A DNA stretch of 64,000 nt from NCBI GenBank assembly GCA_001600635.1, contig BCKL01000008.1:591770-655769 (forward strand), given 5' to 3'. This DNA comes from Leucosporidium creatinivorum (lineage: Eukaryota; Basidiomycota; Microbotryomycetes; Leucosporidiales; Leucosporidiaceae). Within the stretch, counting starts at the first letter, position 1. Every line of letters starts with the position of its first letter. A program made the position numbers and the translations under genes. This document shows positions 10,031 through 60,895 of this stretch, piece after piece. The notes beneath the pieces are model-generated. The model worked only from the letters and a program-made list of their open reading frames with translations, did not search any database and was not told the DNA's origin.

Positions 10031-13000
10031 ATGAGCTCGATTTCACCAACCGCGAGCAAAGAGAAGAAGGTCGACGCCCCCGCCAGCCGAGATTCGGTCG
10101 ACGAGAGGGTCGACTCTGCCTCCATCGCTTCCACCGACCAGGGGCGTTATGCTTCCACTTCGGCGTCCCAGTAAGTATTACAATCTATTTACCACCCCGT
10201 CCCAAGCCTTTTACACGCCTCGCTGTTCTCAAGCTAATCTTCGCCGTTCTCTTCCCCCTTCGCCGTTCGTCCTTCACAGCCGCAAGCTCGAACGGTTCCA
10301 TGTTAACCTCATTGGTGAGTTTCTACCGTAAAAGCTACTCTGTCCACGCCCCTCTGCGCTGTAGCCTTCGCTTGGTGCTTGCTCTCTCGCTTTTCGGCGA
10401 TTCTCTGCGGAAGGGGGAAGGATGGACGGCGGAGTGCCAAGCGAGGCCGTCGGCTCTCGGCGTTGGCGGAAGCTGGAGCAAAGAGTAGGATGCACCTGCT
10501 GCTGCATTACTGGGCTACAGGGTTGCTGCACTCGATGGCATCGGCCGCAGGGACTAGGAAGGGGCAAGACGCATGGCGGGCGGCCGCAAAGTGGGAATTG
10601 CCGAGTGTTCAGAAGGCTGATGCTACTTTCTGGATGTGCTTGCTTTCATACGATGCTCCCTCTACAGCCATGTAAGTGCTACTGCTCGAGATCCGTTGTC
10701 GTTTCGGAGCTGACCTCGGCGTTTCTCTTCGCTCTTCCTGCCCACCTCTCCAATCCTTCACCACTCTTCTACAACTCTGCGTACCTCACATCAATCTAAT
10801 GTAGTGGAGGAACCGTCGGTACCGCTCTGTTCATCAACGTGAGTCTCGTATCGAGCTGTAGGCGCGCCGAACCGAAAGGTCGGATCTTGGCGAAGAACCT
10901 TAGCTGATCCCGTGACCTTGCCCTACAGATGGGAACTGGACTCACCTCCGGAGGACCCGCATCGCTTCTTATCGCCTACCTCTGGTGGACTTCGGTCATC
11001 TGCGCCATCGCCGAATGCCAGCTTGAGCTCGTGAGCCACTTCAAAGCTTTGCATGTTGGATTCAAGCTAACATGACTTCGTTCTGTAGGTCACCTTCTGG
11101 CCAACAGATATCGGATTTGCTCGCAATGCTGGTCGCTATGTCGATGAGGCCCTGGGATTCGCTACTGGTACGTTTCTTCGGCGCTCGCAATGGGGCTACT
11201 CGCGGCTCGCCGACTTACGCTCTGCACGTGATCAGGATGGAACTTCTACCTCTATCAGCAGGCCCTTACCATCTTCGGTAAGTTGAGCCGTTTGTCGAGT
11301 TGTAGCTCGGTAGCTGACCACTCCGCTCGCAGAGGTCACCGCTTTCGGACTCGTTCTCGGCTACTGGCAGGAGACCCTCAAGGTCAATGCCGCCGTCTTT
11401 ATCACCATCGTCATCATCCTGTACACCTCGCTCAACATCTGGACCGCTAGGGGCTTCGCCAACGCCGAGTTCTGCCTCGCCATGGGCAAGGTCATGCTGA
11501 GTGAGTTCGCCGACGAAGCAATGAGCGCGACAGGAAGCTGACCTCGAACGGTCCTTCTCAGTCATCGGTCTGTTGATCTACACCTTCTGCGCCATGGTAA
11601 GCTTCACCCACGCCCGCTGGCAACCCTTTATTCGCCGTCTTTCCCTCGCCGGTCGTCTCGAGCGCCGAACTAAGATTTTACCACTCCCGCGCAGCTAGGT
11701 GCGAACCCATCGAGAGATCGTTTCGGCTTCAGGTACTGGAACAACCCCGGAGCATGTGAGTAAACCGACTCACGAGCAAAGCAGAGCTCGCTGACCCTGC
11801 CTCTCCAGTCACCACTCCCTACCCTGAGCACTCCAAGTCGACCGGCATCTTCGAGGGATGGTTCGCATGTGGTGAGTTACAGCTTTACATTTATGAAAGA
11901 GCGAATGCTGACCCGTAGCCGCCTCGTCAGTCGTCAACGCCTCCTTCACCGTCGCCGGACCCGACTACCTTACTATCGTCGCTGGAGAGGCTCGCAACCC
12001 CCGCAAGGTCATGCCCAAGGCTTTCAAGGCCACCATCTACCGTCTCGTAGTGTTCTTCATCGGTTCAGCTCTTGCTATCGGTACGTCGATGCCCTCGCCG
12101 AATGAGCGCCGAAGCTAACCTCTCGCTCTCCCTTAGGCATTCTCGTTCCCTACAACGACCCCAACCTTCTAGGTGCCCAGGCTTCCGGTGCTCCCGGAGG
12201 AGCCAAGTCGCCCTACGTTATCTCGATGCAGCGTCTCGCCATCCCCGTTCTCCCTTCGATCGTCAACGCCCTCGTTCGTCCTTCTCGCTGTCGTCCACCT
12301 CGGTCTTTCAGCTGACCACTTTTTCTCATCACTAGATCCTCACCTCCGTCTTCTCAGCCGGAAACGCCTTCCTCTTCTGCTCCTCTCGCACCCTCGCTCA
12401 GATGGGCCGTGATGGACAAGCCCCCAAGTTCTTGTCGAAGCGCAACAGGAATGGTGTCCCTTGGGTCGCCGTCGCCACCGTCCTCATCCTCTGCCTCGTC
12501 TCCTACTGCCAAGTCTCGTCCTCCGCCTCCGTCGTCATCACCTACTTGACCGGTCTCGTCGGTTCGGCTCAGGTGAGTCCTCGAGAAGCGTCTAAGCTCT
12601 TCTGTAGCTGACATGCTGTCTTCTTTTACGCTAGCTTGTCGGATGGATCGTCATGTCTGGTACCTGTGAGTACAGCCCTCCCGCCTTCTGCGAGACTCGC
12701 TGACCCTTTCGCTCGCAGGGATCCGCTGGAACGCCGGACTCAAGGCTCAAGGCATCTCGCGCGAGTCGCTCCCCGCTCGTAGTCGCTTTCAGCCTTTTGC
12801 GGCGTGGTACGCCTTCATCTCGGCTATCGTCGTCACCTTCTTCCAGGGCTACAAGTGAGTTTTGCCTTCGCCGAGCAGCGCCCAGCTTGCGCCCATCCTC
12901 CCCTCAACCTACCGGAGCTGATACGCCTGATTCTGTAGTGTGTTTTTGAAGAGCAGGTGGGATACGCCTACGTTCATCTTCGCATAGTCAGTCTCTTCCC

Positions 13001-23268: not shown

Positions 23269-24598
23269 ATGTCGCGCTCGCTCCTTCGTCTCGCTCGCTC
23301 CGCCACCCGCTCGACCGCCCTCCGCCCTGCTCTCAGCCTTCGCTCAGCCGCCGTCCAGCCTGCGTCGTTGCGCTCCATCTCCAGCAGTCTTCCTCGCTTC
23401 GAAGCTAGTCAGTTACATCTCTCCGCTCGCTTGGGAAGAAATCCAGCGCTGACAAAGGGGGGACTTTGTGAACACAGCCTCCCTCAGTGCCAAGCTACAG
23501 GAGGAGCTCAAGTTCGAGGAGGAGAACGAGCATCAGGGAGAGCCTCAGTTCTTGACCGACTTCAAGAGCGATGGGGTGTGGACTGTGCGTAGTGTTTCCT
23601 ACCTCTCGTTTCAAGCGACTGTACATCTCGCTGATGCTGTCAAAAACAGGTCGTCAACGAGCCCGGAGCGGACGAAGTGATCCTCAGCCGTTCATACGGT
23701 AACGAATCGTTCGTCCTTGCCACCCTCCTTCTTCTTGCCCGCTCTACACACCTTTGACCCACTCTGCTTCAACACCACAGCATCCGCCTCATCTTCTCCA
23801 TCTCGGACCTGGACGCCGTGCCCGAAGCGGACGAGTATGATCCCGAAGCTGTGGCCGAGGAGGGCGCTCCTGCTGCTGGTGGTGTGGAGGAGGATGGGGA
23901 GCATGGACCTACGGAGGAGAGCTTCCCCGTGGAGACTGCTATTACTATTACCAAGGCGGGAGTGGAGGGAGCGTTGACGATTGATGCGGTGGCTCAGGGT
24001 GAGTTGAGTTTGGGCCGAGGGTGGAGGGGTGAGAGAAAGAGAGCGATTGTGCTGACGGCTTCGATCGTGCGTGATACAGATGGACTCTTTACGATCCAGA
24101 ACATCAGCTTCTACGAGGATGGCGGACTCGCGCTGGGTCAGAGCGGCGAGGACGACTGGAAGAGGCAGGGATTGTACATGGGTCCTGCTGTACGTTTCTT
24201 TTCCTCCCTCTCTTTTCCTCCTTCTCTTCTCTTTCGCTCAGCGCTGACTTTCAGAGATGAACAGTTCGACAACCTCGACGAGGGAGTGCAGGCCGAGTTT
24301 GAGTCCTTCTTGGAGGAGAGGGGCATCAACTCGAGCCTTGCGCTCTTCATTCCTGATCTCGCCGAATTCAAGTACGTGCTTTCCTCCTTCTCTCCTCCTT
24401 TGAAGCGAGCTTGCCGCTGACCCCTCCTCTTGGTTTATCGAACTGCAGGGAGCAGAAGTACGTTTCACCCTCTTCTCTGACTCGCTCGGCTCGGCTCGGC
24501 TTCTGCCTCAAGCCGTAACGCTTGCTGACCTGCCTCGATGGTCGAACAGGGAGTACGTCTCGTGGCTCAAGTCGGTCAACAAGTTCATCGAGGCCTAA
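23269..24598 (+). CDS. MAM33: Mitochondrial matrix acidic protein MAM33/p32, 265 aa
   Basis: Eight exons: 23269-23407, 23478-23584, 23650-23708, 23781-23998, 24080-24189, 24265-24371, 24449-24457 and 24550-24598. The first 45 residues are Arg/Ser/Ala-rich without acids (MSRSLLRLARSATRSTALRP), a mitochondrial presequence. The mature part is acidic and has the p32/gC1qBP (MAM33) pattern: SLSAKLQEELKFEEEN, a Glu-rich loop, DGLFTIQNISFYEDG, then LDEGVQAEFESFLEERGINSSLALFIPDLAEFKEQKEYVSWLKSVNKFI. The family forms a doughnut-shaped homotrimer in the matrix and supports mitochondrial translation and ribosome assembly. Exon 7 is only nine bases and encodes the EQ of the conserved EFKEQKEYV motif. The start at 23269 gives the presequence; the gene shares a short promoter with the DNAJC17-like gene. 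Confidence 0.9.
24449..24457 (+). other. MAM33: 9-nt microexon of MAM33
   Basis: Bases GGAGCAGAA between AACTGCAG and GTACGT. They complete Lys, then give Glu-Gln and two bases of the next Lys, restoring the family motif FKEQKEYV. The exon is in phase, so skipping would remove KEQ without a frameshift. Confidence 0.85.
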
Positions 24599-30084: not shown

Positions 30085-31594
30085 ATGTCGAACCCCGCAC
30101 CCAACTTTGAAGAGATCTACGCCTTCACCATCTCGCTCGCCCGCCGCGCGGGGAGCATGATCAAGGCCTCGTCCAGCTCGAGGTCGTCGCAGCAGACTTC
30201 TACGGCCGCTGATGCTACCAAGAAGAATCGGGTCGATTGTAAGCTCGTCTGTGGGCCTCTAGCTGCTCTTGCGCACTGTAGGAGCTGCTGGAGGTGACGC
30301 ACAGTGCTCGTTCAACGTGCGCGCTGCCTGGTGAGCTGACCGGCTTATCTGTCTCCAGTGGTGACCGAGACAGATCAGGCGGTCGAGAAGTTTATCATGG
30401 AGGAGATTTCGGCCAAGTACCCCGACTTCTTGTTCATCGGCGAGGAGTCGTTCGCTGGGGGAGAGACTGTCGACTTGACGGACAAGCCTACGTTCATTGT
30501 CGACCCTATTGGTGAGTAGTCAGAGGTCGTATAGATGACTTCGTGCTCTGAGCTAACGCCTTGCCGTGTAGATGGTGCGTGAGGAAGCAGCTCGGGGATC
30601 CTCGCCCTCGTTCGAGAGCTGCTCGCTGATACCTCAAGCTCGCTTGTAGGGACTACCAACTTCGTGCACCAGTTCGACCACGTCGCGTGCTCTATCGGCT
30701 TCACTTACAACCGCATCCCCGTCATTGGGTTCGTCTCCTCGCCTCTCCCTTCCTGCTTTCGGCGCTGACTCTCGGCCTCTCGTGCTCGCTTCCCACTGCA
30801 CACAGAGTCATTTACAACCCCTTCCTCGACAAGCTCTACTCAGCGCGCAAGGATCACGGCGCCTGGCTGAACGAGACTACTCGGCTTCCCCTCACTCACC
30901 CTCATCCTCTCCCTCTCGAAAGCCTTTCGGACGCTATGATCGCTACTGAATGGGGAAGCGACAGGAGTAAGAGGGCGATCGAAGGCAAGGGAAAGACGTT
31001 CATGAAGCTGGCGGCCGATGGCGGTGAGCTGGAGGGAGGAGTCATGGCACATGCGCTCAGGTCGATTGGGTGAGTTTCGGGGAGCTGCAAAGAGGATGAA
31101 GCTGACCTCGTGATCTGCAGATCTGCTGCGCTCAACTACTCGTACGTCGCTGCCGGTCAGCTCGACCTCTACTGGGAGATTGGCTGCTGGTCGTAAGCCT
31201 GGGCTCTCGGCGCCTTCGTCTGGCTCGCGTTTGGCTGACAATCTCGTCGACCCACAGATGGGACGTCTGTGCTGGTACTATCATCGCTCGCGAGGCTGGC
31301 GCGAAGGTCTACGGTTCGTCTCGCCTCGCTCGCGCTACTTCCTCGAACCTCGGCGCTGATTTCCAATTCGCTCCCAACAGGCAAGGGCGGCAAGGAGTTC
31401 CTTCCCGAGGATCTCATGGACCACCATTTCTTTGTGCGCCTCCCTTCGTTTCAATAAGTTTACGGTTAGCCTCTCTGACCCTGATTCGCTCGCAGGTCAT
31501 CCGCGCCATCGGCGACACGGCCACCGAGAAGGGCTCGGACGCCCAAGATAGGATCGCCAAGCAGTTTTTCAGCACGGTGGAGAATTGGGAGTAG
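30085..31594 (+). CDS. Inositol monophosphatase, 310 aa, with a 3-nt exon
   Basis: Nine exons: 30085-30238, 30359-30511, 30572-30574, 30650-30728, 30806-31069, 31121-31192, 31258-31313, 31381-31433 and 31496-31594; coding length is a multiple of three. Motifs of Mg-dependent, Li-sensitive IMPases are complete: VDLVTETDQAVE, FIGEES (metal-binding Glu), FIVDPIDGTTNFVHQF (the two metal-binding Asp) and the C-terminal SWDVCAGTIIAREAGA (third metal site). The enzyme hydrolyses myo-inositol-1-phosphate to inositol for phosphoinositide synthesis in the cytosol; a minority of fungal members act in quinate use, but no quinate cluster is near. Asp and Gly of DPIDGTTN are assembled across the 3-nt exon 30572-30574. 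ATG at 30085 gives the expected family length. Confidence 0.92.
30572..30574 (+). other. 3-nt microexon (ATG) in the IMPase metal-binding motif
   Basis: Upstream exon ends CCTATTG (30511), then GTGAGT; this exon is ATG between TTGCCGTGTAG and GTGCGT; the next begins GGACTACC after CTTGTAG (30650). Joined, the codons read ATT GAT GGG ACT, that is I-D-G-T. Direct joining of the outer exons keeps the frame but loses the catalytic Asp. Confidence 0.88.
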
Positions 31595-48732: not shown

Positions 48733-51697
48733 TCAGGTGTCTCCGTCGACGAGAAAGTCCGAGAACTCAAAGTCGAGCGACAGATCCGCGTAGAGATCGT
48801 TGTCACCGGATGTATTGAAGTTAAAGGAGGCCGTGTCGATGGGCACGTCGACGGGAATGCCTTGCGAGTCCGAGGTGGGGGGGTCGGACGGTAACGGCGT
48901 AGGAGTGATGGACTGAGGAGCGCCGGCGAAAGGTCGAGAGCCGCCGGGAGTGAGGTCGGCGGAGGAGAGGCCGAGGGAAGGAGGAGGAGGTGGAAGAGAG
49001 ATGTGAAGGCCGGGCGAATTTGGGCGAGGGGAAGGACCGTTGGGATTGGCAGGGGATCCGCCGTGGGGAGAGAGACCGTTGGCGGCGCCGTTGTTGCCAG
49101 GTGGTTGGAGGTAGCCTGCCGAGGAGCCTGGTCGCGAGAGTTGGCCGTTGGCGCCTCCTCCGTGTCCGTTCGTCGGCCCTCCTCCTCCTCCACCCATATC
49201 TCCGTTCACCATCTCGCCCATCCCTCCACCACCGGGACCGAACATCTGCTCGTTGGCCTGCCGCATCATCTGCTCGTTAGCGAGGTGCTGTTGGTGCTGC
49301 TGCTGCGACTGCTGGGCGTGCATCCGAGCGTTCTGCGAAGCGCTAATCTGCAGAGCATCGAGAGCCCCTCGGGTCGACTGATCTTGAAGCTGCGAGGGCG
49401 AGGGCGATGGGCGATACGGTGGTCCTCCCTGTTCGCGAAGGACGTCGTTAGCGACCTCACCGCAGCGGCGAGTAGAAGACTAACACTCACAGGATACTGC
49501 CCTCCAGGCATCCCCATCATCCCACCAGGACTCGACGGCCCCGAGCCATCGAAATTCGGCGTTTCCGGTCCTCCTCCCATGCCCATCATCTCCTCATCCT
49601 TGGTCGCTCCTCTCACTCGTTTCCGTGACCTCGGACTCGGATCCTCGAGACTTGCGCCACCTCGCTTGGCGGCCACCGAATTGTGGCCGGGAGCGGGCGA
49701 CATTTTGGCGCCGCCTCGACCTTTGGGGTTGGCGCCGCGCGATGGAGGAGGAAGAGGGGGTTGGAAGGACTGGGGAGAGCCTTGTGGTGGGCCTTGAGGG
49801 GGAGGGATGGACACGTGTTGGGCGAGAGGGGTGGCGTAAGGGGAGGCGTTGGAGTAGTTCGGCGAAGCGGGCGATCCTCTGCGACGCGAGAGCCGAGGTC
49901 AGCGAGCGCGTGTGGAAGGGAAGAGGAAGGTTAGAGCTAACACTTGACCGGGGTTGTACTGCATCTGTTGATGCGGTGGACCTCCCGGACCGGAAGGACC
50001 TCCCATGCGCTGCTGCTGCTGAGCAAAGTGCTCGCGCTCGCGCTGCTGAGCTTGCTGCTGAAGCATCTGCTGCTGCTGGCGCGCCTGCATCTCCTGCTGA
50101 GGGTTCATCCCCTGTGGCTAGAGGCGAAGGAGACGTCAGCTCTCGGCGTTCGAGGCGAGAGGAGCGGGAGCGAGAACCGACCGGATACTGCTGGCGTTGC
50201 TGTAGCTGCTGCTGTTGGTCGGGATGCATACGTTGTGAGACGACGCGTTGCGGTTGTCCTCGAAGATGCGGTGGACCCGGTGGACCCGAGGAGGGAAGTG
50301 TAGGGAGAGCGCCGATTCGTCGCATCTGCGCAGCGACGGCGTTCTGTAGACGAGTCGAGTCAGCCTCGGAGTCACAGAGAGAACATCACTAGCACTACTC
50401 ACCTGCTCATCTCCATTCAGCGACTCTGGATCCCTCCCTGCGAGCCCAACGGCCGCCATCGACTGAGCAAAAGCCGGCGCCATAGGACCGTGTCCATTGC
50501 TGCCTGGTAACATTTCCTGCTGCATCCCGCCCTGTTGCCTCATCTGCTGAGGAGGCGGAGGAGGTCCCCCCGGACCTCCTTGCGGTCGTCCGTTGGCGTA
50601 AGGGTGCTGAGCGTGCTGGAGGTGGGGGGAGGATTGCGCCGAGGAGGATGGGTAGGGGTGCATGAGAGGTTGAGGGACGGCGCCAGGCGGGTAGGGCGCT
50701 CCTCCTGGGGGTGGTGGAGGGCCGCCGGGGTGCTGGAGGTGCTGAGGGTGAGGAGGAGGGCCTTGAAGATGTTGCGAAGAGGGACCAGGTGGGGGAGGCG
50801 GCGCTTGGAGATGGTACTGAGGAGGAGGGGGGCCGTTGAGCGGTCGTTGGCCTGGTATCGGTGCTCGACCTTGCTGCATCTGCTGCTGTAGCTGTTGCTG
50901 CTCCAGAACGTGCAGCTGGCCTGGATGGGTGTGGGTTGGCCGGGGTCCGGCGTGGTTGGCGGGGGGCGGACGAGTGGTGTGGGAGAGGGAGCGAGGCATG
51001 GTGATGGGTGCTGGTGCGTTGGGTCCAGCAAAGTTGATGACGAGTGGTTCTCGTTTGGCGCGAACAGCCTGCGAAGAGCGGAGGGCGTGAGCGGTCGGAA
51101 CCGAGATCGTCGCAAGGAAGTAGGGCGGGCTCACCTCGACGTAGCTGTCGGCGTGAACATTGCGCTGCCCAGTCTTTTGTGACCGAGCGACAAAGACATC
51201 CCAGAAGACGGCCCACCACCTGCACGAGTAGACCGCGGTCAGCGTCGGTTCCACTTGGCCCAAGCACGCTAGCGCTGGCTGCATGCGAGTCCCAACTCAC
51301 TCGTAGAGCAGACCCTGGGGCGCTTCGATAGGCGGACCTTGCCACTCCGACTCAATGATGCCAGCGTCGGCGGCGAAGGCTGAAGCCGTCGCCGTCCAGC
51401 CTCGTTTCTGGGGGACGCAAGAAGGGAGGAGATCAGCGGGTGCATAACCTCAGCAAGCTCGTCAAGTGATGCGCACCACCATGTAGTCGTAGCAGTAGCT
51501 ATTGAACAAGATCAGCTTTGCGCTCGACTTCGGCGCTGAGGGAGAGCTACTCACGCGTGCAAGGTTCCGTCTCCTCCCCAGCTTGGCCCCGACGAGCCGG
51601 GCGTGGAGGGTCCCGGTTGCTGCAGAGGGCGTCAGCAGGTTAGCACGTACCATCTTAGCGCCTGCAGAGCCGTGTTGAAGCTCACCTGGTGAGCCAT
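48733..51697 (-). CDS. FLO8: FLO8-like LisH-domain transcriptional regulator
   Basis: Minus strand, about 10 exons. The early ones are 51697-51686, 51619-51555, 51498-51477, 51407-51301, 51219-51135 and 51068-50403, then 50343-50182, about 50117-49942, from about 49878, and the last down to 48733. The first four junctions assemble a LisH motif: LHAYCYDYMVKRGWTATASAFAADAGI, then GLLYEWWAVFWDVFVARSQKTG. This is the dimerisation module of Flo8/Som1/Adn1 and plant LEUNIG/SEUSS-type regulators; GLLYEWWAVFWDVF is diagnostic. The rest is Pro/Gln-rich (LEQQQLQQQMQQ, QARQQQQMLQQQAQQ) with a basic patch (PRSRKRVRGA) that may be nuclear localisation, and an acidic/aromatic end (DLYADLSLDFEFSDFLVDGD) resembling an activation domain. 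It probably acts in the nucleus downstream of cAMP-PKA in adhesion and filamentation (known for Flo8). Two coding exons are only 12 and 22 nt. Confidence 0.8.
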
Positions 51698-59854: not shown

Positions 59855-60895
59855 TTAGGCGGAGACGAATCCAGTGACGTGGTCAACAACGATCTTCTTG
59901 AGCGAAGCGTCGAGCTCGGGGGTCATGCGGCCCTTCTTGACCTCAGCGAGCATGGCCTGCTGCGAGGACTCGATGTGCTCGAGGAAGTTCTTCTCCCACT
60001 TTCCGCTGCAGAGTGTCGGCGACGGCATCAGCGGGCGGTTCTCGAAGGAAGCTCTGGAGAAACGTACATGTCGGCGACGGGGACACGGTCGAGAAGACCG
60101 TTCACTCCGGCGTAGATGATGGGAACTGTTTGCGAACGGCGCCGAAAGTCAGCGCTGGCTCGGTCTCGCAACTACACAAGAACCTCACCCTGAACCTCGA
60201 TGGCAAGGGGCTGGTACTGGCCCTGCTTGAGGAGCTCAGTGAGACGCGATCCACGGTTGAGGAGGAAGCGGGTCGAGGCATCGAGATCGGATCCGAACTG
60301 GGCGAAGGCGGCGACATCACGGTACTGGGCAAGGTAGAGCTTGAGCGATCCAGCGACGGCCTTCATGACCTGTGAAACGCGAGAAAAGAGCGAGGTCAGC
60401 GATTTGCACGGTGGAGAAGGCGAGCGCCGAGAAGCAGAGCGAGAGACGAACCTTGGTCTGGGCGGCGGATCCGACACGGGAGACGGAAAGTCCGACGTTG
60501 ATAGCGGGACGAACACCCTTGAAGAAGAGCTCGGCCTCGAGGAAGATCTGTCCATCACTGTTAGGCGAGAGGAAGAGCGAGAGTCAGCTCTCGGCGCTTC
60601 ATCTCTCGGCGCGGTCTTGCAGCTCTAGCGTACGTGATGGAAATGACGTTGGTGGGACTGTAGGCGAGTAGAAAAGTCAGCTTCGTGCAGCAGAGCAGGG
60701 AACAGAGCGCCAACGCACATGTAAGCGGAGACATCACCACCCTGGGTCTCAATGACGGGGAGAGCGGTGAGGGATCCTCCTCCGTGCTTGTCGGAGAGCT
60801 TGGCGGCGCGCTCGAGGAGACGCGAGTGGAGGTAGAAGACATCTCCGGGGTAGGCCTCACGTCCGGGAGGGCGACGGAGGAGGAGCGACATCTGA

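Follow-up and report, generated by a model that had tools for sequence, protein, structure and literature searches.

The window analysed here, 64,000 nucleotides of a Leucosporidium creatinivorum contig, carries on its plus strand a gene (30085-31594) that, as predicted from its spliced form, encodes an inositol monophosphatase of the ordinary Mg-dependent type, with its DPIDGTTN motif cut by two short introns lying three bases apart. The three bases, ATG (30572-30574), make up an exon that is very probably real, and the best explanation overall, which we put at roughly 85% from the sequence, is that this exon would be included constitutively, by intron definition, in most or all mature mRNA. 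A preliminary description had reported that DPIDGTTN is split by two introns around a 3-nt exon, and its coordinates, donors and acceptors agree with the sequence and with the spliced model. Its further statement that the exon carries the catalytic Asp stands in part: the Asp is lost without the exon, but the exon contains no entire codon, contributing instead the AT of GAT (Asp) and the G of GGG (Gly) between two introns that are both in phase 1.

In the spliced model the gene is complete, with nine coding exons separated by eight GT-AG introns, and its predicted product after splicing is 310 aa long. Coding exon 1 (30085-30238) begins with the start codon at 30085 and is followed by intron 1 (30239-30358; 120 nt, GTAAGC...CAG) and by exon 2 (30359-30511), which ends in ...FIVDPI plus a G, the first base of the Asp codon. 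Intron 2 (30512-30571) is 60 nt long, with the donor TTG/GTGAGT and the acceptor GTGTAG/A, and contains a branch-site-like CTAAC (30553-30557) with a putative branch A at 30556. The ATG follows as exon 3, its AT completing Asp and its G starting Gly, and is itself followed by intron 3 (30575-30649; 75 nt, donor ATG/GTGCGT, acceptor CTTGTAG/G), in which a branch-site-like CTGAT (30626-30630) places a putative branch A at 30629. Neither branch-site-like motif figured in the preliminary description. Exon 4 (30650-30728) opens with the GG of the Gly codon and continues into TTNFVHQF..., and the rest of the coding sequence is modelled as exon 5 (30806-31069), exon 6 (31121-31192), exon 7 (31258-31313), exon 8 (31381-31433) and exon 9 (31496-31594, including the stop codon), with exon 7 encoding WDVCAG, whose Asp corresponds in the alignment to residue 220 of chain 1ima.

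The spliced protein matches PF00459 with 234.1 bits (cut-off 27), and its best match among solved structures is inositol monophosphatase 1 (PDB 6zk0, E 1.6e-46), which we take to be the human chain; matches in an NCBIfam search with the protein all fell far below their cut-offs. The alignment to inositol monophosphatase 1 runs without gaps through DPIDGTTNFVH, and all three ligand motifs compared, GEES, DPIDGT and WDV, are intact and ungapped, matching the metal ligands Glu70, Asp90, Ile92, Asp93 and Asp220 of chain 1ima (residue numbers counted from the ends of alignment rows). In the published description, Mg-I is bound by Glu70, Asp90 and Ile92, and Mg-II by Asp90, Asp93 and Asp220 (PMC4954947).

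A single intron was considered and rejected, as none of the 28 in-frame models between the flanking exons, with GT-AG, GC-AG or AT-AC ends, gives the motif Asp. When two introns were allowed (GT or GC donors, AG acceptors, each intron at least 30 nt), only one of 5,909 models restored DPIDGTTNFVHQFDH, and this was the 60-nt/75-nt pair around ATG. Chance was modelled by dinucleotide-shuffling the 138-nt stretch between exons 2 and 4, except for its first 6 and its last 30 bases, which were left in place. Of 20,000 shuffles, 2 contained a 3-nt exon whose sites were as good as the real ones, and in none did such an exon also encode Asp-Gly; with lax site scores, 81 of 20,000 shuffles contained a 3-nt exon, one of which encodes Asp-Gly. 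The PF00459 score is 234.1 bits with the exon vs 220.6 bits without. At three nucleotides between GT-AG introns, the predicted exon falls within the size range used for microexons (at most 30 nt, or 51 by some authors). We infer its inclusion in mature RNA because it completes a conserved motif; the junction in the spliced mRNA is predicted to read ...ATTGATGGGACTACC in the exon-included form and ...ATTGGGACTACC in the skipped form.

Splice-site quality was judged against a local set of introns drawn from the window plus the preceding 200 kb of its contig (264 kb in all, of which 10,835 bases are N), which yielded 214 candidates vs 17 in a reversed-sequence control, and 207 after removal of the region of the inositol monophosphatase gene. 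The set of 214 recovered four of the eight introns of this gene, and introns 2 and 3 were missed because the 3-nt exon is shorter than the required 60 nt of open flank. Relative to the 207, the donors of introns 2 and 3 lie at the 78th and 46th percentiles, and their acceptors at the 22nd and 18th, respectively; by length, intron 2 lies at the 25th percentile, intron 3 at the 66th, and a hypothetical single intron of 138 nt at the 95th. Both acceptors are TAG and rank below the local median, and in intron 2 the branch-to-acceptor spacing of 16 is short by local standards (5th percentile 16, median 21); these features count against the explanation we favour. The local set includes 34 introns that are 100 nt or longer; none of them contains a comparable 3-nt exon, and one contains an exon of 1-30 nt whose sites are equally good. 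Direct pairing of the outer donor with the outer acceptor would give an intron of 138 nt, a length found locally, so that some skipping is plausible.

We propose that the introns of 60 and 75 nt would each be recognised across themselves, through their own donor, branch site and acceptor, so that no factor would need to see the 3-nt exon. Only 19 nt separate the putative branch A of intron 2 (30556) from the donor of intron 3 downstream, so the two introns would presumably be removed one after the other; whichever went first, the splice sites still to be used would stay intact. In a published account, intron definition is described as the default mode for short introns and is proposed as the route by which exons below the reach of exon definition are included; in the same report a Caenorhabditis elegans microexon was freed of its dependence on PRP-40 by a short flanking intron, and the authors term their own model speculative (PMC8378409). 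If intron 2 or intron 3 were retained, translation would end after 104 or 105 residues. Skipping of the exon would instead give a protein of 309 aa with DPIGTTN, in frame to the natural stop and still scoring 220.6 bits against PF00459, and this protein is expected, from the lost ligand, to be inactive. The preliminary description had stated that skipping keeps the frame and deletes the second Asp of the motif, and the spliced reading frames confirm both points, the Asp in question aligning with residue 93 of inositol monophosphatase 1 chain 1ima.

Other tiny exons seem to occur in this region. Frame-consistent scans for tiny exons over the 264 kb gave three candidates under strict settings (1-21 nt) and eight under relaxed settings (1-30 nt), nine of them distinct and 3-30 nt in size. 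The reversed-sequence control gave none under either setting, a weak control since reversed sequence is without real introns; chance tiny exons inside true introns are modelled by the shuffle test alone, on the 138-nt stretch only. Homology supports inclusion for five of the nine, namely the 3-nt exon and exons of 9, 11, 24 and 26 nt. The 9-nt exon (GGAGCAGAA; window 24449-24457, plus strand, between introns 24372-24448 and 24458-24549) lies in a MAM33-like gene, whose Pfam score is 72.2 bits with the exon vs 54.9 without and whose protein aligns over 45 ungapped residues to MAM33 (3qv0). For the 11-nt exon (ATCATGTGCTG) of a GH15 enzyme (G000:C8 421449-421578, outer span, minus strand, L012), the scores are 56.2 bits with vs 22.3 without, and the version lacking the exon matches only as far as the junction; the GH15 fragment had no match among solved structures. 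The 24-nt exon of ATP synthase alpha (window 60634-60657, minus strand) encodes PTNVISIT and raises the score from 43.8 to 73.2 bits, with 75 residues ungapped to the alpha subunit of 5lqx. The 26-nt exon, over the RWATHG stretch of GFA1 (G000:C8 496532-496693, outer span, plus strand, L020), is spanned by a match to glutamine-fructose-6-phosphate aminotransferase (E 1.1e-14); its Pfam score with the exon, 26.3 bits, is just below the cut-off of 27, and there is no match without it.

The other four candidates fared less well. An aldo-keto reductase with a 21-nt candidate (G000:C8 578578-578720, outer span, plus strand, L028) scores slightly better without it (31.8 bits vs 30.7). A 22-nt candidate in a LisH-like stretch (window 51477-51498, minus strand) and a 30-nt candidate in an amino-acid permease gene (window 12957-12986, plus strand) were scored with the exon only and gave 18.1 bits (cut-off 21.6) and 23.5 bits (cut-off 24.6). 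An 8-nt candidate (G000:C8 406759-406883, outer span, plus strand, L011) had no Pfam match with or without the exon and was missing from the relaxed scan. The 264 kb amount to about 1 percent of 27.7 Mb and contain five homology-supported cases; on this sequence evidence, exons of 3-30 nt seem not to be rare in the genome.

Tiny exons thus occur in conserved stretches of ordinary genes, and among the five with support two have lengths indivisible by three, so that constitutive inclusion is the default reading; the 3-nt exon is probably constitutive. The preliminary description had suggested that exon inclusion could act as an on/off switch for the enzyme, a suggestion that nothing we found in the sequence supports. 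Were inclusion to vary with condition, the gene would yield active enzyme when the Asp is encoded and otherwise an inactive protein still in frame, which might poison dimers. Such a regulated switch draws on the frame-neutral skip that reaches the natural stop, whereas the retention forms end early, on the usable outer pair of splice sites, and on a published fungal tiny exon with glucose-dependent expression, the 20-nt exon of Xlr2 in Trichoderma (PMC11121469). Like the exon in the window, the Xlr2 exon is fungal and encodes residues of a conserved metal-binding motif, but its authors saw no reads in which exon 1 is joined to exon 3, so it is not a plain skip (PMC11121469), and whereas its expression depends on glucose, we found no regulatory feature in the sequence for the window exon. 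A special RNA fold was set aside, because the folding of the stretch does not stand out (z -1.34; 17 of 200 shuffles fold equally well). Tiny exons within the same 264 kb sit in ordinary enzymes such as ATP synthase alpha, the supported lengths of 11 and 26 nt suit constitutive inclusion, and an inositol monophosphatase-like paralogue on another contig (C16) keeps its own Asp in DPLDGTVN. We therefore consider a regulated switch unlikely, and still more so its specific form, in which a 3-base exon toggles a metabolic enzyme through one metal-ligand Asp and the skipped in-frame protein inhibits the dimeric enzyme.

The three bases might alternatively be skipped mostly or always, which would make this copy an inactive homologue and leave catalysis to the C16 paralogue. 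The strength of the outer donor GTGAGT (78th percentile), the permitted intron length of 138 nt and the existence of a paralogue with an intact motif are compatible with that outcome, which we nevertheless regard as very improbable: GEES, DPIDGT and WDV are intact and ungapped against inositol monophosphatase 1, and it would be hard to see why a complete tiny exon that supplies just the missing residues (0 of 20,000 shuffles) should exist if it were not used. An error of sequence or assembly, behind which the true genome would have one intron or an unbroken motif, is scarcely credible even with the gene known from one assembly alone, for it would have had to produce two introns, each with its full set of signals, that do not resemble one another and that each matched only its own copy in the genome search.

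The preliminary description also held that three bases are near the physical limit of exon recognition, a view at odds with published one-base exons in Arabidopsis APC11 (PMC4674806) and Fusarium CYP621A (PMC12940212), one-base exons in plants being reported elsewhere as well (PMC8831610). The CYP621A exon, described as supported by RNA reads in two species and by 20 orthologues, resembles that of the window in being fungal, in lying within a conserved motif and in the short length of the stretch that contains it (F. graminearum 139 nt, window 138 nt), and both were proposed because the motif could be put together in no other way; it differs in that it is one base long and changes the frame when skipped, whereas the window exon has three bases, is frame-neutral, comes from one genome and is predicted from sequence (PMC12940212). 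The APC11 exon is similarly ultra-small and required for the correct protein, but it belongs to a plant, follows a long upstream intron and was reported as constitutive from constructs (PMC4674806). Exons down to 6 bp are also reported in P450 genes of Phanerochaete (PMC1184071).

Homothorax, troponin T and NCAM, the genes that offer a comparison of equal exon size, are not enzymes. Their three-base exons, reported in Drosophila for homothorax (ATG) and troponin T and in rodents for NCAM, are frame-neutral like that of the window and, unlike its probably constitutive exon, are reported as alternatively spliced (PMC7392893, PMC8042270). The window exon is, on its predicted structure, a very small example of an already known kind of tiny exon. 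Our literature search, with most subscription journals outside its coverage, found no title on a fungal nuclear 3-nt exon, and on microexons together with inositol monophosphatase only a schistosome paper surfaced. For a fungus the exon is very small, and it falls in a catalytic motif, so that an annotation missing it would describe an enzyme without a metal ligand. More broadly, a genome in which tiny exons seem not to be rare should be useful for testing how exons below the size needed for exon definition are spliced in an intron-dense fungus, and it is a caution for those predicting genes in fungi of this kind.

Probably one intron was gained, or moved, next to an existing one, in a motif that would tolerate little change. 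That either intron was recently copied from the other was rejected, since their local alignment score of 10 was reached by 1,925 of 2,000 shuffles; a mobile intron family was rejected too, since introns 2 and 3 each matched only themselves in a genome search that skipped very common words. A stwintron (twin intron) is an inner intron interrupting a splice signal of an outer intron, with no exon between. This does not describe the present case, in which no splice signal is interrupted and both introns are whole, with three coding bases between them. Relatives of exon 5 were not found among the viral or prokaryotic contig records searched, a result with no bearing on fungal conservation.

A PF00459 search of the genome gave seven matches in three genes, namely the window gene and one gene each on C16 and C25. 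The C25 gene, which from its DPIDGTKGF we presume to resemble a 3'(2'),5'-bisphosphate nucleotidase, has no intron in the motif in a provisional model, two of its five modelled introns having weak donors (GTCGTA and GTGCTT). The C16 gene, the inositol monophosphatase-like paralogue, encodes a protein identical to the window protein at 123 of 308 aligned residues, and in its motif DPLDGTVN an intron lies directly after the Gly, 2 nt downstream of the position of window intron 3. This near-coincidence may point to an old intron at this spot, beside which the window gene would have gained a further intron or had one shifted, although the two positions are offset by 2 nt. In the C16 gene the Asp lies in a 33-nt exon encoding the DPTWIIDPLDG stretch (L009 2142-2174, G000:C16).
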